Shown here: positions 38,393-63,380 of the stretch, piece by piece | How positions within the stretch are numbered: the first letter of the stretch is position 1 | Layout: every line of letters starts with the position of its first letter | Assembly: GCF_000801335.2 (NCBI RefSeq) | Contig: NZ_JSEH01000022.1 | Location: 1-64,000, forward strand | Length of the DNA stretch: 64,000 nt | Reading direction: 5' to 3' | From: Desulfovibrio sp. TomC | GTDB lineage: Bacteria > Desulfobacterota > Desulfovibrionia > Desulfovibrionales > Desulfovibrionaceae | The notes under the pieces: generated by a model | What the model was told of the DNA's origin: nothing | The model's input: the letters and a program-made list of their open reading frames with translations, nothing else | Database searches by the model: none | Translations under genes and position numbers: made by a program

Positions 38393-38396
38393 TCAA

Positions 38397-38448: not shown

Positions 38449-38560
38449 CAAGACTCTGGATCGAGGCAGACCTATAGTAGCCGCCGCTTAGATTGCCTGG
38501 ACACTTTTATTCATCAAACCGGACATTTTCAGGGGCGATGGGTGACGGCATTACAAACTA

Positions 38561-38800: not shown

Positions 38801-38951
38801 AAACTCAACCTGTGTCAAATTAGACCTATAATTTCGAATTATTCAAAGCACTACCCTACTTGCCCTTGGACTAAGAAAGGTGTTAACGTCTTCCCAGACT
38901 AAGAGTATCTCGCTTAGCCAAAACATCACCGATTTAGAAGGATATAGTACC

Positions 38952-41090
38952 ATGAAAATCTCCAGCAAACTAATCCTGCTGACGACGATTCCACTTATCG
39001 CATTTCTGGCGATCAGCATTCTTTACACCAAAATCAGCATCGACGAATCTAATATAGTAGACAAAATGTCAAAGAATACGCAACTATTTATTGCAACATC
39101 TGATTTAGTTCACGAACTACAGAAAGAACGTGGTCGAACCTCCATATATCTCTCCGGCGGTTCTCAAGACGATATGAATTCACAGAGGAAATTATCCGAC
39201 AATCAAATCAAACCCGTAATTGATGCGCTTAAAACGGAAAACCTTACCCCACAAGTCAAAGAAGCCATTTCTCAAGCAGTCTCAAACATTGAAAAAGTAC
39301 GAACTCAGGCGAATCAAAATTCACCAGCGAGAGAAGTTGTCGATGCATATGGGAAAATCATTGCAGATTTGATGACCAGCGAAACAGCTATCGCTAACTC
39401 CAAAACAACCCGAGGATTCGGAAAATCTTTGACGACCATCATCATACTAGAGACTGCAAAAGAGAATGCAGGAAAACTCCGTGCTACTGTTTCTGGTATC
39501 CTAACAGCTGACAAGCCTATCAACGAAGAGATGTTTACTCGTCTCATTACATTCAAATCCAACATCGATGCAAACCTTGAATCAAAAGCTCTTGTACTTG
39601 GAGCCCAAGCACACTCCCTTCTGGATGAAACCAGAAAATCGCAAGCGTGGCTGGACACAAACAAAGGATTCAACACAGTACTTGTAAAATCAAAAGAAGG
39701 GAATTTTGGGATAAACGGTAAAGATTTTTTCTCTACGATTACTCAAGTCATCGACTCCCTGAACTCTGTCCGTACAAAAGAAATGGCAACTATAGCGAAA
39801 AACCTCTCGACAATTCAAACCGAGATATCTTCATCACTCACAAAAGTTTATGTCGTCATCGGAACCACACTTATTTTATCACTTTTAATTGCATTTTTTG
39901 TAGCAAGATCGATCACAACACCGATCAACCATCTTATTCAGTATGCACAAAAAGTTTCCGGGGGAAATTTAGAAGCTGAAATCAACGAAAAGTTCACGCA
40001 CGAACTTGGGAGCTTGAAATCTTCATTAAGCACCATGATTTCAAATTTAAAAACTAAAATTTCCGAGGCAGAAACAAACAGTAGAAAAGCTGAAGAAGAA
40101 TCTTTACACGCGAAAATCGCCACGAAAGAAGCTGAAGAAGCAAAAGCACTTGCTGAACATGCAAAAGCTGAAGGCATGACTGCAGCGGCTAGTTCTATTG
40201 AAAGTGTCGTAGAAATTGTTAGCTCTGCATCAGAAGAGTTATCGGCACAGATAGAACAATCGACTCAAGGGGCTGAAATTCAGTCACAACGAGTAGCAGA
40301 AACTGCGACTGCCATGGAACAAATGAACGCTACGGTTATGGAAGTAGCGAAGAATGCTTCTCAGGCGGCAGAAACCGCAGACCAAGCTAAACATCAAGCA
40401 CAAGATGGATCTACTGTGGTGACTGAAGTTGTCACAGGTATTGCTGAAGTAGAATCTACAGCTCTTGAATTGAAAAACGATATGACTTTACTTGGAAAAC
40501 GAGCTCTAGAAATTGGGCAAGTTCTTAATGTTATTTCAGATATTGCTGACCAGACAAACCTTCTTGCCCTCAATGCAGCGATTGAAGCTGCTCGGGCAGG
40601 TGATGCAGGACGAGGATTTGCCGTAGTAGCTGATGAAGTTCGGAAATTGGCAGAGAAGACCATGACCGCGACGAAGGAAGTAGGCGATGCGATCAGGGGC
40701 ATCCAGAACGAAGCCAATAAAAACATTGGAAACGTTGATTTAGCAGTAAAAAGGATCAGTTCGGTTACGATTCTAGCGACAAAAGCAGGTGATTCTCTCA
40801 ATGAAATTGTCACGCTTGTTGATTTAACTACGGATCAAGTGCGGGCTATCGCAACAGCTTCCGAACAACAATCCGCAACTAGCGAAGAGATCAACCGAAG
40901 CATTGAAGACGTCAACAGGGTTTCCATGGAAACCTCCGATGGAATGAGACAATCGGCACAGGCAGTCGGTGAATTGGCCACTCAGGCCCAGGTCCTAAAG
41001 CGACTCATTGACGAGATGAAATCTGAGGGTAGTTCTGGTACTACTGCACTTACTGCTGGAAAGAAACCGTTTGCATTAGGGAGAGGGTAA
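38952..41090 (+). CDS. methyl-accepting chemotaxis protein with NIT-type sensor domain
   Basis: The ATG at 38952 lies 9 nt after AGAAGGA; 712 residues. TM1 is at 7-27, TM2 near 300-320. The periplasmic domain contains [20 protein letters not shown], the NIT signature also found in the diguanylate cyclase just upstream. A HAMP linker (about 321-375) and a coiled coil lead to the signalling tip with [20 protein letters not shown] near 537. There is no C-terminal pentapeptide for CheR binding. It would bind CheW/CheA arrays and report a ligand, perhaps nitrate or nitrite (family knowledge; unproved here). A small protein follows 114 nt on. Confidence 0.95.
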
Positions 41091-41204
41091 TTGAGAATAA
41101 TTTTAACTATATCAGGCTACTGTCTGATCCGTTAGGGCATATCGTCCATAGAAACTTTAACTAAGACCAACTGGGGTGAACTTGCATTTTTCCAAAAGAC
41201 ATGT

Positions 41205-41573
41205 GTGAGTCACCCCACAACCCATACGATTGCTATGCCCTACAAAGACCTTAGAACTATCTCAGAAGGCATCCTAGGCGAATCGTCTTCAACAACCTTC
41301 GAAAAGAAAGTTCTACTCGTCATGTATTATTCCGAGCTATTAGCTCTCAACTTCAAAGAAATTGATGCGATATTCCAAACAAATACTAGGGAACGCTTGT
41401 TCAACATATTCTACTTAGATGCTAGTTTTGTCGAACACGTCTACGTTCTTTTTTTAAATTCTGGAATAAACAACATCATGTCTGAAATTTTTGATAGGCT
41501 CATAAGAATTCAAGAGCTACTCCACCAAAGAAAACTTCTTAAATCTTGTAAAACCACGAAATTTGTCCAATAA
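41205..41573 (+). CDS. small chemoreceptor-linked protein A (unknown family)
   Basis: A 122-residue soluble protein, predicted all-helical, that lies directly after the first chemoreceptor. The start is uncertain: GTG at 41205 or ATG at 41235 (MPYKDLRTISEGILGE), both with weak ribosome sites. I recognise no domain. Its central 80 residues align without gaps to the protein at 45035-45394, which likewise follows a chemoreceptor: shared LGE, T, K, YY/YF, L..L, RE/KE, Y, E.V, F at the same spacing. The two are therefore paralogs tied to chemoreceptor genes. Possible roles are an adaptor, a chemoreceptor modulator or a partner in array assembly (inference). Confidence 0.7.
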   Translation: MSHPTTHTIAMPYKDLRTISEGILGESSSTTFEKKVLLVMYYSELLALNFKEIDAIFQTNTRERLFNIFYLDASFVEHVYVLFLNSGINNIMSEIFDRLIRIQELLHQRKLLKSCKTTKFVQ

Positions 41574-42405
41574 GTGCTTTTCAGTCCAGTCAAAAACGAA
41601 GGAAATTTCGTATTTGGAAAAAGCATTCGATTACAGGTGGTTAACATTACTGAGCCGCCCTACCCCACTCCAGGATCAGGGACAGGGAAGTTTTAATGAC
41701 TGTAGCACCATCACGGGGCTGAAAAATGGCAGAGTCCTGCGATCCGACACCATCGTTTCTGGTCCGAAATGCCCTCTTCCGCCGTTGTCGTCGATCCAAT
41801 TCCAAATATTTAACATTTCTATCCATCAACTGAAAATCAAAAATTCCAGTAAACTGGACTTTTCAAAAGTCGGTAACTTCGTTGTATTTTTCTCAGAAAA
41901 CACCTGCAACCCTCCCTTGGGGAAATCTGGATTCGGGTTTTCCCCTCGGACACCTTGGCCCGTTCCCGATGCTTTCCCAATCGTCACGTTGGTTGGACTT
42001 CCGTTAGACCAAAATCACAGGAAATCGCCAACGTCAATATTCAAAAAACATCTGCTTTAAATAGTAATTTTCTATGCCAGACGAGACATATGTCAGATTA
42101 TAAACGCAACGACATTGCAAATCCCACTTTATGCTTAAAGCCCTGACCGTAAAAAATAACTCACTGAACTCGTTTGCGCAACTACTTTGCTCAAAACATT
42201 TAGCTTGAAAAAATTTTGCACCGGAGGTAAAAAAAATTATATTTCCAGACTCTACCAGTTTTTACGAAGCGATATTTGGGAGCGCATATGAATTGCTTTT
42301 TAAATAACCATCACTCTCACTGCATTGGTACAACGCGGGAGGCTTCATCGAAAGAAATAGCATCGTCACTCACCCTGAAACCCGGAAACCTGACGGGGGA
42401 AATCG
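41574..42405. other. 830-nt gap with repeat copy II and a possible 45-residue leader
   Basis: No convincing long gene. 41,721-42,010 is repeat copy II. After it the sequence is AT-rich, with a consensus GGAGGT at 42,222 that is not followed by a normal start codon. Confidence 0.5.
41721..42010 (+). repeat. dispersed structured island repeat, copy II
   Basis: P1 at 41,728 (GGCAGAGTCCTGC), then TTTCTGGTCCG, P2 at 41,844-41,858 (TCCAGT-AA-ACTGGA, then CTTTT) and the block CCTCCCTTGGGGAAATCTGG with TCGGACACCTTGG. The order and spacing match copies I and III. Confidence 0.7.
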
Positions 42406-42425
42406 ATGAAAGAACCTACAGATAG
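42288..42425 (+). CDS. possible 45-residue leader overlapping cheW
   Basis: An ATG at 42288 stands 5 nt after GGGAG and opens 45 codons (MNCFLNNHHSHCIGTTREAS...), ending 20 nt inside cheW. The sequence has no family resemblance. It may couple translation of cheW or be chance. Confidence 0.25.
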   Translation: MNCFLNNHHSHCIGTTREASSKEIASSLTLKPGNLTGEIDERTYR

Positions 42426-42915
42426 CTGCGATGACCAGTACTTGACTTTTACCCTAGAAAAAGGGTTATACGCCTTAAGTATCAATCATGTAAGAGAAGT
42501 TCTTGAGTATGTGACCATCACCAGAATGCCTAGGACGCCGGACTATATCTGTGGTGTTATCAATTTAAGAGGTCACGCAGTCCCAGTAGTCGACCTCAAA
42601 GTAAAGTTCGGCCTCGGCCAAACCGAAAAAACCATTAATACGTGCATCATAATTACCGAAGTAAATTTTGAAGGTGACCAAACTGTTTTCGGGATTCTTT
42701 CGGATTCTGTCCGAGAAGTCTACGAAATGGATGCAGGACAAATCGAACCACCGCCAAATATGGGCACTGCCATTCGAAAAGATTTCATTGTCGGGATGGG
42801 TCGGTCAGATGAAGTATTTATTATAATTTTAGACATCAATAAAGTGTTCAGCTCACAGGAGTTAGCCAACGTTCTCGATGCTGTGGAGAACGAACAGGCT
42901 GCCATAGCTCTATAA
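42406..42915 (+). CDS. cheW: chemotaxis coupling protein CheW
   Basis: The 169-residue protein, ATG at 42406 after GGGGGA, is a single CheW domain: YLTFTLEKGLYALSINHVRE, PDYICGVINLRGHAVPVVDL and the C-terminal FIVGMGRSDEVFIIILDINK. CheW links chemoreceptor tips to CheA. It lies 67 nt upstream of the second chemoreceptor and is probably co-transcribed with it. No CheA gene is present in the window, so this CheW must work with a kinase encoded elsewhere. Confidence 0.95.
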   Translation: MKEPTDSCDDQYLTFTLEKGLYALSINHVREVLEYVTITRMPRTPDYICGVINLRGHAVPVVDLKVKFGLGQTEKTINTCIIITEVNFEGDQTVFGILSDSVREVYEMDAGQIEPPPNMGTAIRKDFIVGMGRSDEVFIIILDINKVFSSQELANVLDAVENEQAAIAL

Positions 42916-42982
42916 TCATTCTTTTCAAATGGACCGTCGCAACTTCATTTTGAACTGACCAAATACTAATCAGGAGGATAAG

Positions 42983-44992
42983 ATGCGAAATCTTAAACTT
43001 GGAATGAAGATAGGCATTGGCTTTGGCATCCTCATTTTGATAGCATGCTCTCTTGGAGGAATGGCTGTGTTTAACATGACAAACGTTGAACACGATGCAA
43101 AAAAATTGTCAGACGAATACGTACCAGAAGTAGCTATTGCCACCAACGTCGAACGCTCATCATTTTTAACAATGTATGCCTGGCGCGGATACAGTCTTTC
43201 AGAAGAAACCTCTTTTCTCGAAGAAGGTAAAAAGGAACTTAGCCAAGTTCAAAAGCATTTATCTGATGCCAAAACACATGCCGACAAGTACTCTGACTTG
43301 GTCAAGCTGCGGGAAAACGTTGCTCTGGCCCAAAGCAAAGTTAATGAATATTCAAAACTTGCCGATCAAACCGTAGCTCAAATCCAAGCACTAGATAAAG
43401 ACCGAAAACTACTTGACACTGCAGCAACTAGCTACGCAAAAAACACAAGCGATTTCCTTAAAAGTCAAGAAGATGCTCTTGCCAAAGAAATCTCCAATGG
43501 AACATCTGGCGACAAGCTTAAAGAAAGGACCAGCAAAGTTTCAATGATCAACGATGTCATAGACATTGGAAATGAAACACGCATTTTGGTCTGGAAAGCG
43601 CAAGCCCTCAGGGAACCTAAAATTCTTGAAGGAGCAATGAGTAACTTCCCAAAGATTGAAGATTTACTGGCAAAAATAAAAAGCATTACGTTTGCCGAAG
43701 CAAATATTCGGCAGTTAGCAACAACCAGTGAATCAGCACAAGCTTACAAATCTGCGATGACAGGTCTAGTTACAAATTGGAATGAATTACAAAAAATCAA
43801 CGTCAAAAGGACAGAGATCGGCCAAGCAGTTTTAAGTGCTGCGGCTCAGACATCACTTGCAGGTATGGATCAAACAAGTGAGATTTCGAAGGAAGCAGTC
43901 ACCAGTCTTGGGACTGCCTCTACTACCATGGTTGTAGGACTTTCTATCGCCCTTCTCCTAGGTATTATCGTTTCAGTCGTTTTAACAAAAGCAATTACGG
44001 GGCCAGTTCAAAAGGGTGTTCAGTTTGCCGAAGCCATGTCTAACGGAGATTTCACCAAAACCCTTGAAATAGATCAAAAAGACGAAATCGGTATTTTGGC
44101 AGCATCCCTTAATACTATGGTTGTAAAATTGCGTGAGGTTGTGGCTGAAATTCAATCTGCCTCAGAGAATGTTGCTTCTGGTTCAGAAGAATTATCTGCT
44201 TCAGCTCAAAGCATGTCTCAAGGTGCAACAGAACAAGCGGCCAGCGTTGAAGAGATTTCTTCATCCATGGAGCAAATGTCCTCAAACATAAAACAAAATG
44301 CTGAGAATGCCCAGCAAACCCAGTCTATTGCAGTCAAAGCCGCACAAGACGCTCAAGAAGGTGGAAAAGCTGTCATTTCAGCTGTGACCGCCATGAAAAA
44401 TATTGCTGAAAAGATTTCGATTATCGAAGAAATAGCACGTCAGACCAACCTGTTAGCCCTTAACGCAGCTATCGAAGCAGCTAGAGCAGGTGAACACGGT
44501 AAAGGGTTTGCGGTCGTAGCCGCAGAAGTCAGGAAACTGGCTGAACGGAGTGGCAGTGCTGCCTCGGAAATTTCTGATCTTTCGACCTCGAGTGTTCGAA
44601 TTGCTGAGCAAGCTGGGCAAATGTTGACCAAGATGGTCCCAGACATCCAGCGGACGGCAGAACTCGTCCAGGAAATTGCTGCGTCCAGTATGGAACAAAA
44701 CTCTGGAGCAGATCAGATAAATAAAGCCATTACTCAACTTGATCAGGTTGTCCAACAGAACGCATCTGCTTCCGAGGAAATGGCATCGACATCTGAAGAA
44801 CTCTCGAGTCAAGCTGAACAACTTCAAAGCACAATTGAATTTTTCCAAGTTGGCACTACTGCTAATAGACGACGTGCAACACCAAAAGCATTGCCTACTG
44901 GCCGTGCACGGGTTGTTTCCACGTCCAGAAAGCAAACTTCTACCGCAAAAATTGATTTGGATATGGACGATCACGACTTCGAAAAATTTTAG
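42983..44992 (+). CDS. methyl-accepting chemotaxis protein
   Basis: The ATG at 42983 follows AGGAGGATAAG; 669 residues. TM1 is at about 8-30 and TM2 at 316-337. The roughly 280-residue periplasmic part is helical, with the [14 protein letters not shown] helix, and looks like a helical bimodular (HBM)-type sensor. HAMP follows, then the methylation helices and the signalling tip [20 protein letters not shown] near 489. The C-terminal tail (about 45 residues, rich in Arg, Thr and Ser, ending [10 protein letters not shown]) lacks a CheR pentapeptide. A small protein is encoded 42 nt downstream, across a hairpin. Confidence 0.95.
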
Positions 44993-45000
44993 CGGTTTAC

Positions 45001-45033
45001 GCAAGGAGGTGGGGCCTTCCCCCACCTCCTTGC
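45001..45033 (+). promoter_or_regulatory. hairpin containing a perfect Shine-Dalgarno in its 5' arm
   Basis: GCAAGGAGGTGGG pairs with CCCACCTCCTTGC (13 bp, plus one closing pair). There is no T-run, so it is a poor terminator. AAGGAGGT in the 5' arm is a full anti-16S match, buried in the stem. The ATG of the next gene starts 2 nt after the stem and has no other ribosome site. Confidence 0.7.
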
Positions 45034-45034
45034 A

Positions 45035-45394
45035 ATGAGCACACAGATGAATCTTTGCCAAGCCATAGATACGAATAAACAGCTTTCTGAAATGATTCAA
45101 ATGGTTGGGAATAAACTTTTGGGAGAAACCAAAGACAGGACCCAGATCAACAAAAGTTTTTTAGCCATATATTTTATTAACTTAATAGTTCTTGAAGATA
45201 AAAGATTTCTCAAAGCATATAACAATGCGGGCAAAGAAAACATACTTATTTCCCTCTACAATTCGGAAATAATACTCGAAGAGGTAGAGCAAAATTTTCA
45301 CGAAAACGATTTCTGTCAAATCGTACGTCTACTTTCAAATTTTCTTATAAATATGTCGGCCAACACCATGAACTCAAAAGCAAGTCCATCATAG
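45035..45394 (+). CDS. small chemoreceptor-linked protein B (unknown family)
   Basis: A 119-residue soluble, mostly helical protein between the second chemoreceptor and cheV. It is a paralog of the 41205-41573 product: the segment from KLLGETKDRTQINKSFLAIY to the LI pair near residue 107 aligns without gaps to the same stretch there. Identity is low but hydrophobic positions match throughout. Starts at 45035 or 45047 are possible; the hairpin just upstream probably controls translation. Function unknown; position inside a CheW-MCP-CheV set argues for a chemosensory role. Confidence 0.75.
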   Translation: MSTQMNLCQAIDTNKQLSEMIQMVGNKLLGETKDRTQINKSFLAIYFINLIVLEDKRFLKAYNNAGKENILISLYNSEIILEEVEQNFHENDFCQIVRLLSNFLINMSANTMNSKASPS

Positions 45395-45416
45395 CATACG
45401 CTAAAAGAGGAAACCC

Positions 45417-46385
45417 ATGTCACAAGAAATACTACTCGAAACAGGGACTAACGAGTTTGAAATTTTAGAGTTTTTTATTTCGTCACAAAAAGATGAGGAA
45501 TCACCACTTGAAGTTAATTCGTTCGGAATTAACGTTGCCAAAGTCGTGGAAGTAATTGAAAATCCAGGGCTTGAACTTACCTACGACAATGTCAATCCCT
45601 GTTTCATGGGAGTTATTCCTCTACGGGGTGAAATCTTACCTGTGCTCGACCTTTCAAAATGGCTTAAGCTGCCTAAAAAAAAGTTCAGAAATGAAATAAT
45701 AATTGTGACTGAATTCAGTAAGCAAATAGCCGGATTCTTAGTCTCAGGTGTCGTTGAAATTCATCGACTGGATTGGACCCAAGTCGAATCACCAGACAAA
45801 CTAGTAGCATCTTACAAAGAGAACTGCATAGTTGGGATCATTCAAATCGAAGAAAAAATTATTCAACTCCTTGACTTAGAATACATGATCTCTGATATGA
45901 CGGGTGTCACGATTGAAGCGAAAATCGACCGTTTCATTTCAGAGAAGAAATACCGAGCTTTAATAGCTGACGATTCCAAACTAATCCGCGAAATGCTAAG
46001 AATTTCTCTGGGAGAAGCAAACTTTGAAGTACGTGAGTTCACAAATGGCTTCGACTGTTGGAATTATTTAAACCAGCGTGCATCTGATACTTCAGACGAC
46101 TCACTTCCAAAACAACTTGATTTTGACATCGTTATAACAGATATCGAAATGCCTCAAATGGATGGCTTCACTCTCACAAAGAAAATTAAACAAAATTCAC
46201 TTTTAAAAAATCTGCCTGTTTTGCTTTATTCTTCAATCATCACTGAAGAACTATACCACAAGGGCCAATCGGTTGGAGCAGACGAGCAAATGTCAAAACC
46301 CGACCTACACAAGGTTCCGCAGGTTTCTGTAAAATTGATTGAAAAATACCAGTCAAAGCAACATATTGAAAATTTTCCGAGATAA
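45417..46385 (+). CDS. cheV: CheV-type coupling protein (CheW domain plus receiver)
   Basis: The 322-residue protein starts at 45417 after AGAGGAAA. Residues 10 to about 170 are a CheW-like domain (FGINVAKVVEVIENPG, GVIPLRGEILPVLDLSKWL). Residues 180-310 are a receiver: RALIADDSKLIREMLRISLG, phosphorylation site in IVITDIEMPQMDG (near 241) and the switch Lys in MSKPDL. CheV couples receptors to CheA and dampens signalling when phosphorylated (adaptation). It is the fourth chemosensory gene of the block. Confidence 0.95.
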   Translation: MSQEILLETGTNEFEILEFFISSQKDEESPLEVNSFGINVAKVVEVIENPGLELTYDNVNPCFMGVIPLRGEILPVLDLSKWLKLPKKKFRNEIIIVTEFSKQIAGFLVSGVVEIHRLDWTQVESPDKLVASYKENCIVGIIQIEEKIIQLLDLEYMISDMTGVTIEAKIDRFISEKKYRALIADDSKLIREMLRISLGEANFEVREFTNGFDCWNYLNQRASDTSDDSLPKQLDFDIVITDIEMPQMDGFTLTKKIKQNSLLKNLPVLLYSSIITEELYHKGQSVGADEQMSKPDLHKVPQVSVKLIEKYQSKQHIENFPR

Positions 46386-46510
46386 GTTTTTTCTTTTCAG
46401 AAAAAACTCACTCTTTTTAAGATTTAAAACTAAACACTACGTTACACGAAGCCAAGACAACTGCAACTTTATGATGCAAGGTTAACACCTTTAAATACCC
46501 AAGGAACCCG

Positions 46511-49405
46511 ATGTCACACCCTAAAGAATTTAATAGCCAAATATCCAAAGAGATGGAGGCTCTTAGCAAGACAGCTATGTACGACAAAGGATTGTTCAAC
46601 ACTGTCTTAAGTTGTCTTCCAATGCCTTATTTCCTTGTCGACACCTCAGAGCGTATTCTCCAAACGAATCTAGCATGTCTAGAAATGCTCAAAATTATTG
46701 GACCTATTGAAACCACTTACGGAAAAACTTTGGGTGAAGTTTTTTATAATGACCCAACACATATAACTTTTATGAGTCACACCCTTCGTCAGGGAACTGT
46801 TTATCGCGACCTTGAGGTTCCTACCAAGGATCATCTTGAAAATGACCTTCATATCATAGCAAATATTTTTCCACTTTATGACACAAACAATACCTGTATA
46901 GGCGGAATGAGCATTTACGTCAACCATACAGAACGCAAAATGACACAAAAAGCTTTACAGGAAAGTGAAAAGAAAAATTATGACCTCATCCAAAATCTTC
47001 ATGCAGGAGTCGTTGTCCACGCATCGGATTCTAGAATAATTGTCGCTAATGACCAAGCTTCTCAGCTACTTGGGCTTTCCATTTCCCAACTGAAAGGGAA
47101 AAATGCGATAGATCCTGAGTGGTTTTTTATTCATGAAAATGGAACGAAAATGTCCTTCGTAGAATACCCAGTATCTCAGGTGATCGCTACTCGTTCCCCA
47201 GTGAGGAATTTAATTTTAGGGATAAATCGTCCTTTGCACAACGACTTAGTTTGGGTTCTAGTTAATGCTTTTCCTGAGTTTGATCAACAAAATGAACTGC
47301 TCCAAGTTGTTGTAACCTTTGTCGACATAACTGATCGCAAAAAATCTGAAGAACAAATTCTTCGAAACGAAACGAGGTTACTTTCCCTTGTAAATATTCT
47401 CCAACATCCATTCACTTCTGCCCAGGAGTTTTTGGATTTTGCTCTCGATGAAGCTATAAAACTAACTGAGAGTAAAATTGGATATATTTATCACTACGAC
47501 GAGGATAGACGTGTTTTTACTTTAAACACGTGGTCAAATGAAGTTATGCATGAATGTAGCATCACGTCTCCGCAAGCTCGTTATGAACTAGACAAAACTG
47601 GCATCTGGGGAGAAGCGGTCCGCCAACGCAAGCCGATAATTCTAAACAAATTTGAGGAGGAGCACGCATTAAAAAAGGGGTTTCCCACTGGACATGCTCT
47701 TTTGAAATCATTCATGACGATTCCAGTGTTCAAAGAAAACAAGATAATTTTAGTCGTTGGCATGGGGAACAAAGACACTGACTACTCTAGTAGTGACGTC
47801 TACCAGTTAACACTGTTAATGGACTCCGTTTCAAAAATACTTCACCAAAAAAAGGCTGAACGAGCACTCGTAAAAAGCGAAGAGACTCTCCGCTCAATAA
47901 TTCATGAGACGCCCATCGGCATACATATCTATGAACTTGTCGAAAACGCACTCGTATTTAGCGGTGCGAACCCAGCAGCAGACTTAATACTAGGTATAAA
48001 TCACTCTGATTTAATTGGAAAAAATATTGCCGACGCTTTCCCAATGCTTGCAGAAAACGATATATCTGCTCGCTATCTCGAGGCATTGCAAACGGGTAAA
48101 ACATGGCACACTGAGCAACTAGGATATGAGGACGCCAACATATCCGGTATTTATGAAATTCTTTGCTTTCGAATTTTTCTTGACCAGATAGCAGTAATGT
48201 TTCTCGATGTCACAACACGCAAACAACAGGAACTTGAGCTTGAAAAAGCAAAAAAAACTGCTGAAGCTGCGAATAAAGCAAAATCTGAATTTTTAGCCAA
48301 CATGAGCCATGAAATAAGAACGCCATTAAACGGGATCATGGGTATGCTTCAATTACTTGAATCTACGAACCCGGATCATGAGCAAAGCGAGTATATTGAT
48401 ATTGCACTTAGTTCTGGCAGAAATTTAACTCGTTTAATCTCTGACATTTTAGACTTATCTCGAATAGAACAAGGCAGTGTCACCCTAGAAAATCATGGAT
48501 TCAGTATCAACCACCTCATAGAAGACGTTGTCAACACTTTCATAACTGAGTTAACAACGAAACAAATTCAACTTTCTACGCGCATTGACAAATCTATTCC
48601 TGAAATTATTTACGGAGATTCAGGCAGACTCAGGCAAATTATATTTAATATCTTCGGAAATTCAATTAAGTTTACCCCACACGGGCGCGTATATATCTCG
48701 ATTAATTCACTAACAGTAAAGAAAACAATACACATTTTTATAGAAATATCTGACACCGGCATTGGAATCCCAGAAGATAAGCTCGATGAAATTTTTGTCC
48801 CTTTCACCCAAGTTGATGGTTCTTTGACCCGTAAATACGGAGGAGTAGGCCTTGGACTTTCAATTGTAAAAAAATTACTTTTAATCATGGAAGGCAGTAT
48901 TACTGTCGACAACAATGAGGGAGGGGGTACTACAACTTGTATTGCAATTCCTTTTAAGATTACTGAGCCTCCGATCCTAGAGGAGACAGATAAAACTACC
49001 GACATCACTCACGAAAATTTTTCGAATCTAAAAATACTTATCGCTGAAGATGACTACGTTAACCAATTGACAATATCTAGCTTCGTTAAAAGAATTGGTC
49101 ACATTCCATTATGCGCAAAAGACGGAGTTGAAGCTTTAAAGTTGCTAAAATCTGAAAATTACGATTTAATTCTGATGGATATACAAATGCCGAATCTTGA
49201 TGGAGTAGAAACGACTATAGCGATAAGGAATTCAAACAAAAACTTCTCCAAAATACCTATTATAGCTCTGACTGCTCATGCTATGGCTGGAGACCGAGAA
49301 AAATTTTTGGCCCATGGCATGGACGGCTACTTATCAAAGCCAATCATCCTCGAAGACTTAAAGAACGCAATAGATCAAATATTTAGCCCAGACACAAGCG
49401 CTTAA
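46511..49405 (+). CDS. soluble hybrid histidine kinase (PAS-PAS-GAF-PAS-HisKA-HATPase-REC)
   Basis: The 964-residue protein starts at 46511 after AAGGA. There is no membrane segment, so it senses inside the cell. In order: PAS (about 25-145), PAS (150-280), GAF (290-450, with [20 protein letters not shown] and [14 protein letters not shown]), PAS (455-575), HisKA with [15 protein letters not shown] (His near 600), HATPase ([20 protein letters not shown]) and a receiver ([13 protein letters not shown], Asp near 891). The GAF domain is the type often joined to diguanylate cyclases and kinases in Deltaproteobacteria. No HPt or response regulator partner lies nearby. It is the last gene of the signalling block. 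Confidence 0.94.
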
Positions 49406-50897: not shown

Positions 50898-51125
50898 ATG
50901 GAGAAAAATCATCAAGACCTTCTTGATCTAAAATCGGAGATAATCAATGGATTTCATCCAATTGAACAACTTTTCAAGATCATGAGCAAACAATCTGAAG
51001 GAATCCATGACGATATGACCCGTTCATGTGCAGAGGTAGGTTTAGAACTATGTAAAAGCTTTCGATTCAAACTCGATGCCCTTCTAACCACTCAAGAACA
51101 GGAGCAAGAAGATGACCAGCGATAA
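50898..51125 (+). CDS. 75-residue protein of unknown function
   Basis: ATG at 50898, with AAAGG 9 nt upstream. The product is helical and acidic (MEKNHQDLLDLKSEIINGFH ... TTQEQEQEDDQR) with two cysteines and no membrane segment. It overlaps the DUF6573 gene by 14 nt, so the two are translated together. No family recognised. Confidence 0.65.
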   Translation: MEKNHQDLLDLKSEIINGFHPIEQLFKIMSKQSEGIHDDMTRSCAEVGLELCKSFRFKLDALLTTQEQEQEDDQR

Positions 51126-51501
51126 CGAATGGAATCTGATTTATTCGTATACCAGGGCACAAGCAATCGAGGACGGGGTTCTAATCGATGTCACCGACGC
51201 GGCCAAGGGAGTCGGGTTCAAGGTGCATACTGTCGTAACCGCTACCCTTTACAACGGATACGTCGAACCACCCACCGGGCTGACAGGCGAGGGTCAGTCC
51301 ACAGCTGGCCGCCTCCATGATCTGCTGTTCCTAGTGCTCTGTGCAGCCAGAAAGAATCACGCCGGCGCGGATCGAGCGACAGTCCGGGTCGCATTCCTCA
51401 TGGCCCCTGGGAAAACGGAGACGGTGGACGTCATCGTGCACATTGGTCCTGGTGATCAGGGGGAGCCAGTTCTGACCTTGATGTTGCCCGAGGATGATTG
51501 A
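51112..51501 (+). CDS. DUF6573 family protein
   Basis: The 129-residue protein, with GGAGCAAGAAG before its ATG, matches the DUF6573 pattern: LIYSYTRAQAIEDGVLIDVT at the start, then GFKVHTVVTATLY, a central RLHDLLFLVLCAARK and a beta-rich end (VDVIVHIGPGDQGEPVLTLM). The family is small, cytosolic and common on plasmids, ICEs and phages; no function is known. Its GC content is clearly higher than that of the neighbouring flagellin centre, pointing to separate origin. Confidence 0.8.
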   Translation: MTSDNEWNLIYSYTRAQAIEDGVLIDVTDAAKGVGFKVHTVVTATLYNGYVEPPTGLTGEGQSTAGRLHDLLFLVLCAARKNHAGADRATVRVAFLMAPGKTETVDVIVHIGPGDQGEPVLTLMLPEDD

Positions 51502-51524: not shown

Positions 51525-51851
51525 TCACTTCTGGATCAGTACCCTGGCCATGGTCAGGATCGCTCGCACTTGCTCTTCACTGGCCCCGGCCAGCAACTCC
51601 AGAAGTTCCTTCTGCACCTGTTCCCGCGTCATGCCGACATCCCCGAGGTCAAAGAGGGATGCCAAATCTTCCTCGAGTGCGGCGGATAATCTTTCGATAT
51701 TCACCAAGGTCGGATTCCCCCTACCCCTCTCGATCTCCCCAACGCTTTGGAGGGACAGCCCCGCCCGCTCCGCAAGCTGCTCCTGGGTCATGTCCTTTGC
51801 CCGGCGCAATGCCCGGACACGTTTCCCGAAAACCTTAAGAATCTCGCCCAT
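51525..51851 (-). CDS. XRE-family transcriptional regulator
   Basis: The 108-residue protein, AAGGACGG before the ATG at 51851, has a standard helix-turn-helix: LRRAKDMTQEQLAERAGLSL, SVGEIERGRGNPTLVNIERL, then a C-terminal helical tail. It is divergent from the flagellin gene (about 210 nt between starts) and convergent with the DUF6573 gene. It could control either its own unit or the flagellin; the sequence cannot decide. Similar to phage and plasmid Cro/C1-type repressors without a peptidase domain. Confidence 0.92.
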   Translation of the reverse strand: MGEILKVFGKRVRALRRAKDMTQEQLAERAGLSLQSVGEIERGRGNPTLVNIERLSAALEEDLASLFDLGDVGMTREQVQKELLELLAGASEEQVRAILTMARVLIQK

Positions 51852-51999
51852 GGAACCGTCCTTTTCGGACAGTCTAGGGCTAGCGAGTCGTTCTTATAAG
51901 AAAGTTAGGTATGTAATTTGCTAGATATTAACAAGTAAACTTTATTTTATGCCAATTTTTCCGCCTGAGCCTTGATTTCTGGTGGTTCAGGCCCCGGGC

Positions 52000-52065: not shown

Positions 52066-54162
52066 ATGGCATTGATCATAAACCACAACCTCATGGCGAT
52101 GAACTCCGCCAGAAATCTGTCAGCCCACTATGGGGCGCTGAGTACGTCGACCCAGCGGTTGTCGTCTGGGCTACGGATCAATTCCGCCGCCGATGACGCT
52201 GCCGGACTCGCTGTCCGGGAGTTAATGCGATCTGATGTCAGCACCTTGAACCAAGGAATAAGGAACGCTAACGATGCCATCTCCATGATCCAGACAGCGG
52301 ATGGGGCCTTACAAGTTGTCGATGAAAAGTTGATTCGGATGAAGGAACTGGCAGAACAAGCAGCTACTGGAACTTACACTGACGATCAAAGAGCGATAAT
52401 AAACAGTGAGTTTCAAGCTATGGCACTTGAAATACAGCGTATTTCAAATGCGACTGACTTCAATGGGATACCTCTTCTTAATGGTAATTTGTCTGGAATA
52501 TCCAATACATCAGGCCTAAATTCTTCTGGACCACTTGTTGTCCATTTTGGCACAAGCAATAACTCAGCAGAAGACTACTATTCCATTTCAATCAATGATT
52601 CAAGACTTCCTTCATTATTTAGCAATGCAAACATCGTTGGATCAGTCTTGCCAGACTCGATACCAATGTACGAACCAGACGGGAGTAGCAAACAAGTAAA
52701 CACATTCACAGCCGGCGACCAAGAATACCCTTCTCTAACTTCAATAGAGGGTGGAAATTTCCTATCCGTATGGCAATCGCAAAACCAAGGGGAAACAGGA
52801 TGGTCGATTCATGGCCAAGTTATGGATGCTGTAGGAAATAAAGTTGGATCTGAATTCCAGGTAAATACATACAACTCTAGCGACCAGACACAACCAAAAA
52901 CAACAACACTAGGGAATGGCAACTTACTTGTCACATGGGCGTCCAATGGACAAGATGGATCTGGACTAGGAGTCTATGGACAGGTTCTTCAAAAAGATGG
53001 CTCAAAAATAGGAAGTGAATTTCGGCTAAACAACACGACACCAAACGATCAACAAACATCCATACAATATGTAGGAAATCCTTTGGTTGCCTTGGACGAC
53101 AACCGTTTTGCAGCAGTTTGGTCGTCGGATCAACAAGGAGGCGCAGGGTCGAATACAATATTTAGAATATTCGACAACGAGGGAAATCCTTTAACAAATG
53201 AATCCATTGTCAGCGACCACCCAAACGGATCAAATATAATACCATCAATCACTAAACTTACAAATGGGAATACAATAGTCACATACTCTGGAGGAGGCGG
53301 GGGCGGCCCTGACCCAAGTAGTTATGGGATTTATTCTCAAGAATATGACACAAGTGGGGCAAAAGTTGGGAACAACACATTAGTCAACGATTATACGTCA
53401 AATTCTCAAAACTGGTCATCCGTCCAATCTCTTTCAGACGGAAAATATGTTGTCTCTTGGTCATCATTCGAACAAGACACTCCGACTAGCTGGGGTGTTT
53501 ATGCAAAGATATACAATCAGGACGGCACAGTATACAAACCTGAATTTAAGGTGAACGAAGCAACAACTAACGACCAACACGCGCCCGTTATCGCAGACCT
53601 TAAAAACGGATCATTCATTGTTTCCTATAATTCAGGGGGGTTTGATGGAAAAATTGGATGGGCGACTGGCGCACAAATCTTCGCCTATAACGGATCAAAA
53701 CTTGGGAATGAATTTATGGTTAACAGCGAATCCACAGGGAATCAATCAAATCCAGCGATTACAGCATTAGACGATGGAAGCTACGCGATAGCTTACAACA
53801 ACGATGCGGGAGAAGATCCTTCTGGCGTTGGAATTTCCGTTAGAATTTACCAACCCCTCCTAGACATAAGAACACAAACCCGAGCTCAAGATCATCTGGA
53901 AAAAATATCATCAGCGATGGTAAAAACAAACAACATCAGAGCAAACCTTGGAGCAACACAGAACCGACTCGAAAACACCATCTCAAACATCCAAATCCAA
54001 GCGGAGAATCTCCAAGCCGCTGAATCGCAAATATCTGATACAGACGTTGCCCAAGAAATGACCTCATTTGTGAAAGAACAAATACTAGCTCAAGCAGCAG
54101 TTGCCATGCTATCGCAAGCGAATTCTTTGCCAAAGATGGCATTACAAATCATACAGGGCTAA
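52066..54162 (+). CDS. flagellin with a seven-repeat beta-propeller-like insert
   Basis: The ATG at 52066, 10 nt after AGGAG, gives 698 residues. Residues 1 to about 140 are a normal flagellin D0/D1 N-part (MALIINHNLMAMNSARNLSA, SGLRINSAADDAAGLAVREL) and 598-698 the C-part (LGATQNRLENTISNI, ending LPKMALQIIQG). Instead of a usual variable domain, residues about 210-597 contain seven repeats of some 47-60 residues: QVNT...DQ..P..T.L..GN.L..W.S..QDG.G.GVYGQV...DG.K.GSEF. This repeat type is known from large adhesins and is thought to form propeller blades. The protein should build a filament with propellers on its surface. It is a lone gene, with no other flagellar gene nearby. Confidence 0.9.
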   Translation: MALIINHNLMAMNSARNLSAHYGALSTSTQRLSSGLRINSAADDAAGLAVRELMRSDVSTLNQGIRNANDAISMIQTADGALQVVDEKLIRMKELAEQAATGTYTDDQRAIINSEFQAMALEIQRISNATDFNGIPLLNGNLSGISNTSGLNSSGPLVVHFGTSNNSAEDYYSISINDSRLPSLFSNANIVGSVLPDSIPMYEPDGSSKQVNTFTAGDQEYPSLTSIEGGNFLSVWQSQNQGETGWSIHGQVMDAVGNKVGSEFQVNTYNSSDQTQPKTTTLGNGNLLVTWASNGQDGSGLGVYGQVLQKDGSKIGSEFRLNNTTPNDQQTSIQYVGNPLVALDDNRFAAVWSSDQQGGAGSNTIFRIFDNEGNPLTNESIVSDHPNGSNIIPSITKLTNGNTIVTYSGGGGGGPDPSSYGIYSQEYDTSGAKVGNNTLVNDYTSNSQNWSSVQSLSDGKYVVSWSSFEQDTPTSWGVYAKIYNQDGTVYKPEFKVNEATTNDQHAPVIADLKNGSFIVSYNSGGFDGKIGWATGAQIFAYNGSKLGNEFMVNSESTGNQSNPAITALDDGSYAIAYNNDAGEDPSGVGISVRIYQPLLDIRTQTRAQDHLEKISSAMVKTNNIRANLGATQNRLENTISNIQIQAENLQAAESQISDTDVAQEMTSFVKEQILAQAAVAMLSQANSLPKMALQIIQG

Positions 54163-58894: not shown

Positions 58895-60931
58895 TCAAAA
58901 GGTATAGGCCTTACTTCTGGAGTTAGGCACTGGGGTTTCCTTGATGACTCCCTCTTTCACTGCTTTGTCAATGTATTTTGCAGCAGATCCATGTGCTTTA
59001 ACTCCACCAGGATTCATATTTGCATAAACTGCCATCACTTCCTTTTTCAACTCTTCCTTAGAACTTGCTTTCCCACCAAGATTTTTAAGAGCAGTCACGA
59101 CATAATGGACTTCATCTGCTACTTTTTTGCTTCCTACTGCTCTGAAACGGAGGCTCATTAGCTCCAGCATCAATTCAGTCTGAATCGCAAAATTGCGTGC
59201 CTTGTTATGTTTCAAAACATATTTATCTTCTTTCTTTTTAAAACTTAGCTCCCAAGTATTCGGAGACCAATCACCAATAGCACTGGCTCCTCGTCCGCCA
59301 CCGGCACCACTATCGGTAGAAAACTTCCCATGATGATGAATCAAAAGTGGTGTAACACCAATCTCTTCAGTAAGAAGAGATACCCTGTCAAGAAGCCTCC
59401 GCATCTGATCGTTTGAATTTTCATCCTCACTATGGAAGCTTATCAATGGATCAATAACTAGGATGTCTATTTTGTTTAAGTCAACAGATTCTTTTATGGC
59501 TTTCTGAAAATGAGGGTCTTTTATATCGCCACTCGTCCGAACATCATTGTTGACACCAAGGAAAAACATTCTGTCTTGAAGAAGAGCATCCGGGAATTGG
59601 TAGACATTCCTAACAAAGTCGATCCTTTTCTTCATTCCAATCAAAGAGTTTTCTGACTGGACAAAGAGAACTCTATGCTCTCCTTGGTTCACCTTAAAGA
59701 TATTCAAGAATCCAGTGGGCGGGGGCAAGATAAGGTCCATCGCAATTTGCAAGGTGAGGATCGACTTGCCGGCACCACCGTGTCCGGTGATCAATAATGG
59801 CTCACCTTTTGGCCAAAAGTTATCTATAAGGTACTCAAAATTTACATTTGATTTGACAACATCCAACGCATTGAATGTCTTGTACTGACGCTTTGGAGTT
59901 GAAGGTTCCGATGGAGGTTGAGAAGCAGAAGACACCAGCGCTGGGTCAAAATTTGCTGCAATATGATCTTTTGCCTTCGTTATTTCTCGGTCAAACCATG
60001 CTGCCCCATTTTCTCTCGATTTTTCTCCAATGGGGTAACTCGCAAAGATTTGCCTGACCACCCCTTCAGATAAATGTGAACCAAACAGGGCCACGAGGAC
60101 CTTCATGGACACTTCTGACCGCTGCCCTTTGGGAATCGGGGTGACGATCTGCGTCTTGATGTTTTCGGAAACAGGGAGACCAGCGATGAAGTTGTCAGAA
60201 AGGGGAGTCGTCGGTGTGCTCTGCGCGGTAGTTGTCGTTGGCACCGGCGCGGCCAGAGGAGTATTCGGCGTCATAGGGGAATCCTGGGGATAATCGTGTG
60301 AATCGGGAATGGAAACAGGGGCCAGTGGCTTTATCGTCTTATGAAGGGAATAGTTCCGCAGCCAGTCCGGTGCCGAGGCCAGATTTTCGGGACTTTCGAC
60401 GATGACGTAGGGCTTCCCCGTTTCGGGATGGAGCGATCCAGGGCAAAGGACTTGGCCGCCGATACCACGGATGTCGAAGACTTCTTTGACGGATCGGTTG
60501 GGATATCGCTGGCCGTCGCTCGGATAGAGGAAATAGAAGTGGTACCGTTCACCAGTGCCGCCGGTCTTGACCTTCAAAGTGGCGGGTAGCTCCTCCCCGA
60601 CATTGGCAGTCAGCCAATCCCGGAACTTCCCCATGTCATCGACATCGAGGACCAGAACACCGCTGGCGGGACCGCAGGCGACGCCAGCACGCTCAGGAGA
60701 GAAGTCGGCACGGTTGAACTGGCGCTTCTGTTCGCACCACTGCTGCCAGATGGCCTCCGTTGGGCGCTTGAATTCACGGGAGGACTGCCCAGGAGAAGGG
60801 AAACCACCGACCAACGGGATCAGGGAGAAAGACTCTGCCAGAAATTCGAAGATACCCAGGCGAGCCTCGTCATCAAGCTGGTCCGACATCTCGATCAAGC
60901 GGAAGATTTCACTCTGGCTGTGCGGCATCAT
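58895..60931 (-). CDS. bifunctional primase-polymerase / RepA-like helicase
   Basis: The start is the first of two adjacent ATGs at 60931, 5 nt after GGATGGAG; 678 residues. Residues about 20-215 are an archaeo-eukaryotic-type primase-polymerase: GVLVLDVDDMG (metal-binding DxD near 95), ERYHFYFLYP and FDIRGIGGQVLCPGSLHPET. A Pro/Thr-rich linker and a PriCT-like helical unit (GQRSEVSMKVLVALFGSHLS) follow. The C-terminal third is a RecA-fold helicase: Walker A GHGGAGKS near 380, Walker B ILVIDPLISFH near 490 and IHHHGK. This is the replication protein of many integrated plasmids and satellites. The primase half is GC-rich and the helicase half AT-rich. Confidence 0.9.
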   Translation of the reverse strand: MMPHSQSEIFRLIEMSDQLDDEARLGIFEFLAESFSLIPLVGGFPSPGQSSREFKRPTEAIWQQWCEQKRQFNRADFSPERAGVACGPASGVLVLDVDDMGKFRDWLTANVGEELPATLKVKTGGTGERYHFYFLYPSDGQRYPNRSVKEVFDIRGIGGQVLCPGSLHPETGKPYVIVESPENLASAPDWLRNYSLHKTIKPLAPVSIPDSHDYPQDSPMTPNTPLAAPVPTTTTAQSTPTTPLSDNFIAGLPVSENIKTQIVTPIPKGQRSEVSMKVLVALFGSHLSEGVVRQIFASYPIGEKSRENGAAWFDREITKAKDHIAANFDPALVSSASQPPSEPSTPKRQYKTFNALDVVKSNVNFEYLIDNFWPKGEPLLITGHGGAGKSILTLQIAMDLILPPPTGFLNIFKVNQGEHRVLFVQSENSLIGMKKRIDFVRNVYQFPDALLQDRMFFLGVNNDVRTSGDIKDPHFQKAIKESVDLNKIDILVIDPLISFHSEDENSNDQMRRLLDRVSLLTEEIGVTPLLIHHHGKFSTDSGAGGGRGASAIGDWSPNTWELSFKKKEDKYVLKHNKARNFAIQTELMLELMSLRFRAVGSKKVADEVHYVVTALKNLGGKASSKEELKKEVMAVYANMNPGGVKAHGSAAKYIDKAVKEGVIKETPVPNSRSKAYTF

Positions 60932-61183
60932 GCTACTCCATCCAAGGATTGACCACTTTACGCGTAGCTGGTTCACGAATTAGCGGCATGGTGCCGAGGT
61001 TGGGAAGAAAGTGCCTGTTCACCTGGGGCAAATCAAGTCAAAATCCAGAATCCTCGGTGAGTTACCTGAAGAGAGAACAAATTGCATATGCTCTAGGCAA
61101 GAATGCTCAATGTTTTAAGACAGTTCGATGTCATACTGCCGTGGTGACTTGGCAACGCGTTATCCACTTGCTATGAAATCCTC

Positions 61184-62134
61184 ATGGCAGAAAAATCCGA
61201 CAAAACTCCTGTGGATGATACCGACCGTCTCAAGCGAGTTGCTTTCTGGTACTGGGAGTACATGCGGAGAAACCCGCTATACCGTCGATATTGCGCAGTT
61301 ATTGAACGATACCATGACTATTTTAAGTCCATTGGCGTCTTTGATTATATGGAAACGAGAGAATATCTTGAAGAGATGACCGGATATACAGCAGCCCATG
61401 ACGACGAAGAAGAACTTATCCACAATCCCTTTCGGATGCGACTCGAGAAGGATCACGGGAAAGAAGCTGGGATGAAATATTTCAAATATGGATTCTTGAG
61501 CTATGGGTTTGAAAAGCATTTTGGAAGAATTTACCAACATCATTCCATTGGCATGGACAGTAGCATCATACTGGACAAACTGCTCACTGGCGTAGATATC
61601 GTTTTTTCCGTCAAAGGGCCAGCCGATATATCCGCCCTTACAAAGCTCAATGGGAGCTGGATGATCTCGATTGATGAAATGAGTCCAACTAACTTTCTCT
61701 ACAACCTGGGAAAATCGACAAGTATCAAAGTTGACCCCCAAGCGATACTTAACAACCCTACGAAAGTTGGCTTGGAAATTCATGCTTTAAATCTGATCAA
61801 TAGAGCAGTTGAAAGCCTTTTTGGGAAACAGCATATTGCAGATGAAACGTTCCAATCCGTTTATAAACTAAGTTTGTCTGGAAAACATATCAACAGTTCA
61901 GATGCTATGCGCCTTGCCCTACTCTGGCTCTGGGACAAGGCCCACGAAAAGGAAGGGGATGCCCCCACCCCCTTTGAGGAGGTCTACCCTGCCCTGAAGG
62001 CAAAGATAGAAGCAGCCGGGTTGACAGACGGCACCTGGGAACAAATTGTCACCCGCCGCAAGCGGATCGCCGGATACTATGCGGTGACAGATTTTTGCAT
62101 TAAAAATCACGCCATAACGTCCTTAAATCAATAG
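61184..62134 (+). CDS. DUF6499-like N-terminus, unknown function
   Basis: The 316-residue protein starts MAEKSDKTPVDDTDRLKRVA and soon shows FWYWEYMRRNPLYRRYCAVI, the W-E-x-x-RRNP-x-Y pattern of the DUF6499/transcriptional-regulator-like domain on plasmids. The middle contains LDKLLTGVDIVFSVKGP and the C-terminus WLWDKAHEKEG with a helical tail. No catalytic motif. It is divergent from the primase-helicase gene (252 nt between the starts) and may be the regulator of that replicon (inference from position). Ribosome site weak; start at 61184 uncertain. Confidence 0.65.
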   Translation: MAEKSDKTPVDDTDRLKRVAFWYWEYMRRNPLYRRYCAVIERYHDYFKSIGVFDYMETREYLEEMTGYTAAHDDEEELIHNPFRMRLEKDHGKEAGMKYFKYGFLSYGFEKHFGRIYQHHSIGMDSSIILDKLLTGVDIVFSVKGPADISALTKLNGSWMISIDEMSPTNFLYNLGKSTSIKVDPQAILNNPTKVGLEIHALNLINRAVESLFGKQHIADETFQSVYKLSLSGKHINSSDAMRLALLWLWDKAHEKEGDAPTPFEEVYPALKAKIEAAGLTDGTWEQIVTRRKRIAGYYAVTDFCIKNHAITSLNQ

Positions 62135-62282
62135 CTATCCGTCAAATATCTTCGTCCTGCCAAATTCTTTTTCTAGAAATTGGCGGGTTCCTCGAAGCTC
62201 CTTTTGAGAGTGGTGCTCTCAACGGTCCGGGACAAAGCGACGCACGCTCCCCAAAACATGGACCGACGCAAGGAGTTCCAAA

Positions 62283-63380
62283 ATGGCTAAGCTCGAAGAC
62301 ATCTCCCATTCGAATGAGTCCGCCCCCCAGAACGCCACCGGAGGCACCGGAGGTCCCGGTGGAGTTCCCTCCTCGGGGACCGAAGACGTCTCTTTGCCCA
62401 AACCCGTGCCGACTGTCGGTGCTCCTGGCAACGATGACGATCCAATGCGCCATATGCTGATGCACTTCCAGGGCTCCACGGGAGCCATGGGCGGGAAACC
62501 CGAACCTGATGCCCAGGTCGAGGAAGGAAAGCCCATTCCCCAGGAGATGTTGCAACGCGTTGTGGAGAACACGACGGGGCAGATCGAAAAGCTCACCAAG
62601 GATGAAGCACTACTCCAGTTGAAGTCACAACATGTGGCTGCTGAAGAGATTTATGCCTCGGCTCGCACGAAGATGGTCAATATTGGATACCTCATCGGTT
62701 GTTTGCTCGCGCACCTCAAATCACTGGTCATTGCCGAGGGTGAAAACTGGGGCGATTTCAGTGATCGCGAATTACCCGAAATGTCGCGGCGCACTCGGGA
62801 TAAGTGCATGAACCTCGCCGATACCCCAGGCATCCTGAAGCACGCCTACCTTGGCACCGATGCAGCAGAACAAGTCATCCAAATCATCAAACCAATCAAG
62901 CACATGCTGTCCAAGGAAGACCCTATCAGCGACCTGTTCGAACGCAGCGGCATCAAGCTCAATTACGCAGAGATCGAAAAGAGCGAGTTGAAGCTTCTGG
63001 TTCAAGCGGTCATTACCCGCCAGAAGCTGTTGCCCAAAAAGATCGACATCGAGGTTCAGACCATCATTGACTTCAGCAAGGTGGCCGGCCCGGTGACTGC
63101 CATTGATACCGCCGTAATGCTTGACCGAGTGGCGCATGAACTTTCTCCAGCAGAATACATGGTTGAAGTCATCGCCAAAAATGGACTTCGCCCCAACGAT
63201 GTCAGCGACACCAATTCCCCCAAACATCCGATCAAGTACATCAACGCCGAGACCGTAAAGCTCAAGAATTCCATCGATCGTCTCCTGGAGGAAGAGGTCA
63301 ATCTGAAAAAGCTCGACAAGACACACCTGGAAGCCTTGCGGACTGCTGTCGACAACCTGCTGGGACGCTTCTCGAACTAA
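62283..63380 (+). CDS. DUF3102-like protein with disordered N-terminus
   Basis: AAGGAG lies 8 nt before the ATG at 62283; 365 residues. The first 90 are Gly/Pro/Ser-rich and probably disordered. From about residue 115, AAEEIYASARTKMVNIGYLI then EGENWGDFSDRELPEMSRRT and RDKCMNLADTP recall DUF3102-type proteins of phages and plasmids (a helix, a 'G-x-W' centre, then the 'S-x-R-T-x-x-x-Y/CM' helix). The C-terminal half is helical with a possible coiled coil near the end. Function unknown. Composition is much richer in GC than at 53-59 kb. Confidence 0.65.
   Translation: MAKLEDISHSNESAPQNATGGTGGPGGVPSSGTEDVSLPKPVPTVGAPGNDDDPMRHMLMHFQGSTGAMGGKPEPDAQVEEGKPIPQEMLQRVVENTTGQIEKLTKDEALLQLKSQHVAAEEIYASARTKMVNIGYLIGCLLAHLKSLVIAEGENWGDFSDRELPEMSRRTRDKCMNLADTPGILKHAYLGTDAAEQVIQIIKPIKHMLSKEDPISDLFERSGIKLNYAEIEKSELKLLVQAVITRQKLLPKKIDIEVQTIIDFSKVAGPVTAIDTAVMLDRVAHELSPAEYMVEVIAKNGLRPNDVSDTNSPKHPIKYINAETVKLKNSIDRLLEEEVNLKKLDKTHLEALRTAVDNLLGRFSN

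Follow-up and report, generated by a model that had tools for sequence, protein, structure and literature searches.

By structure prediction and strong sequence evidence, the gene at 52066..54162 (+) of the window (the whole 64,000-nucleotide stretch of Desulfovibrio sp. TomC DNA analyzed here) encodes a flagellin that carries a beta-propeller between its polymerisation ends, and it appears to be a member of a mobile flagellin family with exchanged outer domains. We propose that it is an accessory flagellin of an element integrated at a tRNA-Val gene, that each subunit would display one predicted propeller on the filament and that the propeller would bind a ligand. Taken as a whole, we would give this statement an even chance of being correct.

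The flagellin and its predicted propeller

The frame is open and intact, with an ATG start, a putative ribosome site (AAGGAAGGAG) 5' of it, 698 residues and a stop. The opposite-strand reading of the same interval was rejected, the reverse strand being full of stops. The protein (74.5 kDa, computed pI 4.5) has no cysteine. Flagellin_N matches residues 5-141 with 127.9 bits (cut-off 26.6) and Flagellin_C matches residues 611-695 with 77.4 bits (cut-off 23), which identifies a flagellin with an N-terminal polymerisation end at residues 1-140 (52066..52485, +) and a C-terminal one at residues 611-698 (53896..54159, +). Both scores are far above the cut-offs, in agreement with the first-pass annotation, which had described the flagellin ends as standard and had placed the domain boundaries correctly to about 15 residues. 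No Pfam family reaches its cut-off in the insert, the nearest being CopC (20.3 bits vs 23.3). Three ordinary flagellins are encoded elsewhere in the source genome.

Seven repeats of about 55 residues, as had been read from the sequence at first sight, occupy residues ~211-597 (52696..53856, +). A profile HMM of the repeat finds all seven copies, a count that is partly circular in this protein because four of the 13 training units were taken from it. In a periodicity analysis that does not depend on the HMM, the best lag (56) scored -0.02, and none of 500 shuffled sequences reached this value (mean of the shuffle maxima -0.45, largest -0.15), which led us to reject chance repeats.

AlphaFold2 was applied to the full flagellin with seven aligned sequences and to the insert alone with ten. 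The full-length model has a mean pLDDT of 71.4; within the insert, 10-residue blocks score between 46 and 94, mostly above 75, and confidence is poor towards the outside of the flagellin ends. Its top Foldseek match is the Geovibrio thiophilus flagellin 9au6, but with an rmsd of 30. Modelled alone, the insert gives a propeller and not an open or unrelated fold (pLDDT 86.2, pTM 0.89), with 26 strands of at least three residues that correspond to about seven four-stranded blades, one for each repeat. A Foldseek search with this model returned 399 chains at E ≤ 0.001; propeller enzymes, sialidases and glycoside hydrolases among them, make up most of the best 50 of the 399. The top match in VIA-align is the solved propeller of CylK (PDB 7roo; Z 41.7, rmsd 2.4 over 363 residues, 16% identity), followed at Z 26-31 by YncE, Photorhabdus lectins, integrin alpha heads and WD40 proteins. 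PDB sequence searches with the insert yielded no convincing relative.

The first-pass annotation had likened the repeats to those of giant adhesins, and the same repeat does recur in giant secreted proteins. Outside the HMM training set, one block of seven repeats was found in each of three alphaproteobacterial proteins. A giant protein of 6264 residues has eight blocks of seven, another of 4372 residues has five blocks of seven and one of six at its N terminus, and a Pantoea protein has two blocks of fourteen; Rhodovulum_H5b, the seventh protein scanned with the repeat HMM, has no repeats. Because the repeat occurs mostly in blocks of exactly seven in unrelated giant proteins, seven copies appear to form a closed unit. 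The insert is thus predicted to close into one seven-bladed beta-propeller of about 42 kDa (computed for residues 206-600), the arrangement that had been suggested from the copy number. One giant protein with the same propeller type adjoins type I secretion genes. The propeller flagellins scored have seven copies each, some of them weak (E 0.04 for the fifth copy of L010), whereas at 29 more distant loci from a draw across the phylum the HMM, there close to its limit, finds between 3 and 8 copies. Seven copies each of the window-type repeat were also seen in three neighbouring Planctomycetota proteins (L037 2496-9520), one of which belongs to the HMM training set; the one that was scanned contains DUF4347.

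The function cannot be read from the fold, whose matches range over enzymes, scaffolds and lectins. A catalytic role of the insert, like that of the flagellinolysin domain, would fit the top structural matches, among which are the propeller half of CylK (an enzyme), sialidases and glycoside hydrolases. However, HExxH and an Asp-box-like pattern are absent from the window protein, and giant proteins use the same propeller repeatedly, which would suit a structural or binding module better. We consider an enzymatic flagellin very unlikely.

The tRNA-Val element and the regulator beside the flagellin

A tRNA-Val gene lies at 36296-36370, and 36332..36370 (-) represents one side of an attachment site, the repeat starting at 36332-36334. 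Copies of this repeat that lack the remainder of the tRNA occur on two further contigs of the source genome, and a third contig has a 40-base fragment of it. Solidesulfovibrio magneticus has it at three more places, spaced 31-49 kb, and other species have it as well; none of the five attachment copies scanned contains a complete tRNA. Such an arrangement is what tandem integration of elements at tRNA-Val would produce. We take G005 as S. magneticus RS-1, since the first 3000 bases of one of its contigs are identical to plasmid NC_012797.1, and we place it in the same genus as the source genome (Solidesulfovibrio, order Desulfovibrionales). Tandem element arrays with a variable cargo slot beside the XRE and DUF6573 genes were observed from 36332 onward in the window, at 1060-1172 kb in G005 and on contig C4 of G011.

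Chemosensory genes fill 36758..49405 (+), with GGDEF/NIT and CheV-type proteins recognized by Pfam and methyl-accepting proteins, CheW and a hybrid kinase read from the frames. They are flanked by the attachment site and the flagellin, no further attachment copy occurs in this interval, and they can therefore be taken as cargo of the same element, which is why they neighbour the flagellin. The first-pass annotation had used c-di-GMP and chemosensory neighbours to propose a link between motility and attachment; these genes do adjoin the flagellin, but a shared element alone shows no functional link. The element backbone includes a DUF6573 protein (51112..51501, +; PF20213, 85.2 bits, cut-off 27), whose gene is a close neighbour of XRE in many elements, a Prim-Pol/AAA replication-type protein (58895..60976, -; Prim-Pol 78 bits, AAA_25 81.9) with relatives in the elements of G005 and G022:C52, and two genes for 316 and 365 aa (61184..63380, +) with relatives in other elements. 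Two further element genes downstream of the flagellin, at 55657-56883 (+) and 57558-58394 (-), encode 408 and 278 aa and have no Pfam match at E 0.01. Phage_integrase genes are found beyond the window at contig positions 66815-67426 and 67556-68680 (94.6 bits for the second). The window contig, which ends at 72785, has no far attachment site, placing the right end of the element beyond the contig. A tyrosine integrase is encoded on the window contig, the attachment repeat at tRNA-Val is found in the source genome and in others, and by these marks the flagellin gene, together with the chemosensory genes, is cargo of a tRNA-Val integrative element. Neither this status nor the family with exchanged outer domains had been recognized in the first-pass annotation.

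A second type of element also carries a propeller flagellin. It is shared by contig C52 of G022 and contig C8 of G001, which belong to two genera, over 29.3 kb at 99.3% identity, and outside this region the stretches compared have no alignment of at least 200 bases except 356 bases at 84%. A tRNA-Glu repeat was seen by eye at the ends of this element, which in G022:C52 (33877-63199, L103-L105) holds an integrase, Prim-Pol, a type III methyltransferase and UvrD-type helicases. Judging by the alignment, this looks like a recent transfer between the two genera, unless the assemblies share contamination (listed at 1% and 2% for the two).

Divergent from the flagellin gene is a gene for an XRE-type regulator of 108 aa (51525..51851, -; HTH_3 54.3 bits, cut-off 23), with 215 nt from start to start. 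In Solidesulfovibrio and its relatives, 18 distinct XRE-flagellin pairs were identified (17 within the family, one in G046 of the same order), with G001:C8 and the near-identical G022:C52 counted as one; the distance between the two starts is 178-279 nt and once 426. Among the best 38 XRE places in the family search, a divergent flagellin is present at 18 and absent from 18, and two are cut by a contig end; all eight places with at least 83% identity have the flagellin. Because other genes occupy the slot at some of the flagellin-less places (two of these in the source genome), the XRE gene seems to be part of the element backbone and not flagellin-specific.

The gap between the two genes contains a sigma-54-like promoter motif, GG-N8-TTGC (aGGTATGTAATTTGCT, 51907..51922, +). 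This motif is present in 16 of the 18 XRE-flagellin gaps, whereas 2000 shuffled sets average 0.93 and never exceed 5. Kinship inflates the count, seven of the gaps being close kin; counted by eye, the motif stands at the aligned place in 15. A scored sigma-54 consensus gives single-gap p values from 0.002 to 0.56. Sigma-28-like sites precede two of the three ordinary flagellins and a sigma-54-like site the other. All seven gaps whose XRE protein is 83-100% identical contain AAGTwAACTT, in the form AAGTAAACTT (51933..51942 in the window) but AAGTTAACTT in one. We guess that this could be the operator of the XRE protein; an operator inverted repeat is not above shuffles in any of the 18 gaps (p 0.08 to 1.0), and AAGTnnACTT is absent within 420 nt upstream of all three ordinary flagellins of the source genome. 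The flagellin would be transcribed from the sigma-54 promoter, probably under the XRE regulator of the element.

Exchanged outer domains and the distribution of the propeller

In G001:C11 and G003:C1, the same XRE gene is accompanied by long flagellins with another insert (type B, the window kind being type A), which consists of seven repeats of about 47 residues. The autocorrelation at lag 47 is 1.75 and 1.89, and an HMM built from G003:C1 finds seven copies in each. The type-A HMM gives type-B inserts E 0.085 at best, so that the two are unrelated by sequence. Flagellins with the ~47-residue repeats beside XRE lie at L041 4896-6746, L042 4977-6827 and L039 7111-8928 (-), and the second flagellin of S. 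magneticus has a diverged type-B form with eight HMM matches, two of them weak. The seven-repeat type-B insert is probably another propeller. The XRE-paired flagellin of G640 has a domain near Laminin_G_3 that stays below threshold (25.9 bits vs 27.6); LamG-like inserts, just under this cut-off or recognized by eye, are those of L127 2001-3312 and L148 12267-12968 (-), respectively, the latter ending after 234 aa. L130 lacks the flagellin C end, and the inserts of other flagellins of this kind have no Pfam match.

The window flagellin is 86-89% identical to type-B flagellins at the N end and 82-85% at the C end, whereas the middle is 27-29% identical; the corresponding values against the flagellin of G022:C7 are 83%, 75% and, for the middle, 76%. 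Ends and inserts have been recombined, because the window ends are nearer to type-B flagellins and the middle is nearer to G022:C7. Against other element flagellins, N-end identity is 86-96% and C-end identity 82-88%. On these identities, the outer domains of the element flagellins are swapped on similar ends.

In a tree of both ends, from which the duplicate L006 was removed and to which the window row was added, 13 element flagellins fall together, apart from the chromosomal ones (94/90, below the starring threshold). An N-end tree also takes in flagellins without a complete C end, and there 20 of 21 element rows group apart from the chromosomal flagellins (93/95, again below the starring threshold), L131 lying outside the group. 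With element and chromosomal labels assigned by us (L014 and L015, of 451 and 453 aa, as chromosomal), this tree has two label changes, against a shuffled mean of 16.6 and with none of 500 shuffles as low. L015 groups with chromosomal flagellins yet lies among attachment copies and element genes. Two rows with end branches above 8 (L061 and L168) are part of the both-ends tree but not of the N-end tree.

Other flagellins with the type-A repeats, which the first-pass annotation had proposed to look for, were found in at least six of 58 relatives (own genome apart) and at no fewer than seven loci: G005, G022 twice, G023, G001, G046 and G013. The family search gave propeller matches in seven of 288 genomes, own included, and in six of the 288 the match lies in a flagellin; G645 has the propeller in frames of 2142 and 2559 residues. 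Matches were found in 43 of 395 genomes in the phylum draw (own included). We inspected one locus from each of 29 other matching genomes, a further 13 standing outside this set, and one of the 29 is a flagellin (L061 in G212). A genome-contig scan returned one locus. The flagellin-like gene of G212, which belongs to a distant genus, has seven type-A repeats (L061; L165 8999-10999, -). Its very long branch outside other flagellins in the both-ends tree, together with the lack of any match to element queries in the 19 kb around it, suggests a separate origin. A phage protein was rejected as the identity of the insert, which has no tblastn match in the phage collection. Two PHROG families are matched by the flagellin, with the best stretch on its N end, and an IMG/VR scan with the whole-flagellin alignment found one flagellin of 270 aa, without the propeller (L168 4971-5816, on viral contig IMGVR_UViG_3300037249_002393).

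Comparison of the window flagellin with one orthologue, that of S. magneticus RS-1 (92% identical), gives a dN/dS of 0.085 for the insert and 0.061 for the N end, whereas the C end is saturated; by this comparison the insert is under purifying selection. This bears on whether the gene is ballast of the element, little or never used while ordinary flagellins make the filament. The first-pass annotation had allowed for a silent gene with normal flagellins elsewhere, and three such flagellins do exist; ballast would also fit the rarity of the propeller in flagellins of the family genomes, the early end of the L148 frame and the missing C end of L130. The purifying selection, the intact frame with its ribosome site and the conserved promoter-like motif argue instead that the gene is used, and we hold ballast to be highly improbable.

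Possible function and comparison with known systems

In the proposed mechanism, the host flagellar export machine would export the flagellin unfolded, and the product would co-polymerise with the chromosomal flagellins or replace them; export and polymerisation are suggested by the identity of its ends to those of the element flagellins. The propeller would fold outside the cell, one per subunit on the filament surface, and such display is likely from what is known of flagellin biology. Since similar ends are combined with other extracellular-type domains in related elements, the element family would alter the flagellum surface. The likeliest use of the propeller would be to bind a ligand (a glycan, a surface or another cell), turning the filament into an adhesive or capturing one. 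Ligand binding or adhesion is plausible from the fold and the kinds of domains used, and it is the weakest step.

Bulk and novelty, with no ligand, might suffice. A bulky, changeable coat could alter filament mechanics and swimming or hide the filament from flagellum-binding phages or predators, and very different outer domains on similar ends fit variation for its own sake. In the part of PMC13418256 available to us, motility rose and the host filament was replaced when a prophage supplied a flagellin with a large outer domain, and nothing pointed to a role in phage resistance. The related tRNA-Glu element, with its type III methyltransferase, places defence cargo beside such flagellins. However, selection on the insert is purifying and not diversifying over its whole length, and several of the inserts resemble binding folds. 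We regard this surface remodelling as possible but on the doubtful side.

Returning to ligand-binding display, the element family of these sulfate reducers as a whole may constitute a mobile flagellar display, built for the most part on a single flagellin lineage with a single promoter arrangement and type of regulator. Interchangeable outer domains would decide what the flagellum binds, and by acquiring or recombining elements, whose cargo also includes chemosensory genes, cells would switch surface specificity. We put this forward tentatively, as somewhat short of an even chance. Predicted binding-type domains exchanged on similar ends by mobile elements form a natural comparison set for the role of flagellin outer domains. 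The filament scaffold appears to tolerate a 42-kDa ring per subunit, an element may change what the surface of the host flagellum can bind, and the findings suggest that attachment specificity could spread by horizontal transfer. The carrier S. magneticus RS-1 is a named strain, which makes the question testable.

In E. coli, flk/fln-type regions carry a flagellin gene on an integrated, excisable region; to our knowledge, they have no propeller and no XRE/Prim-Pol backbone. Flagellinolysins are flagellins whose variable region, between conserved ends, accommodates a metallopeptidase domain (PMC5595980, available part). The window flagellin resembles them in having a whole folded domain inserted between conserved ends, but the insert there is a protease, whereas here it is a predicted propeller encoded on an integrative element; identity with flagellinolysin was rejected, no HExxH being present in the window protein or in six homologues. 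The Flagellin Remodeling prophage (FliCP/TldR) is similar in its element-borne flagellin, different outer domain and neighbouring regulator, and there the flagellin of a prophage is reported to be able to take the filament over and, by way of its outer domain, to change motility (PMC13418256, available part, which describes no propeller). It differs in that the neighbour here is an XRE protein and the element has Prim-Pol, integrases and tandem tRNA sites. Among the matches listed in the open-access literature searched, we found no described propeller flagellin, consistent with the first-pass annotation. The word "propeller" is absent from the available parts of PMC5595980 and PMC7018530, and both of its uses in the available part of PMC8306008 mean the flagellum itself. 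The C-terminal seven-bladed propeller of CylK (7roo) is like the insert in fold, but CylK is a cyanobacterial enzyme and not a flagellin. The giant secreted proteins (of Rhodobacteraceae SC52, Rhodovulum and Pantoea) share the repeat by sequence, in blocks of seven or multiples of seven and one of six; they hold many propellers in a protein of 3700-6300 aa, whereas the window flagellin would present one per filament subunit.
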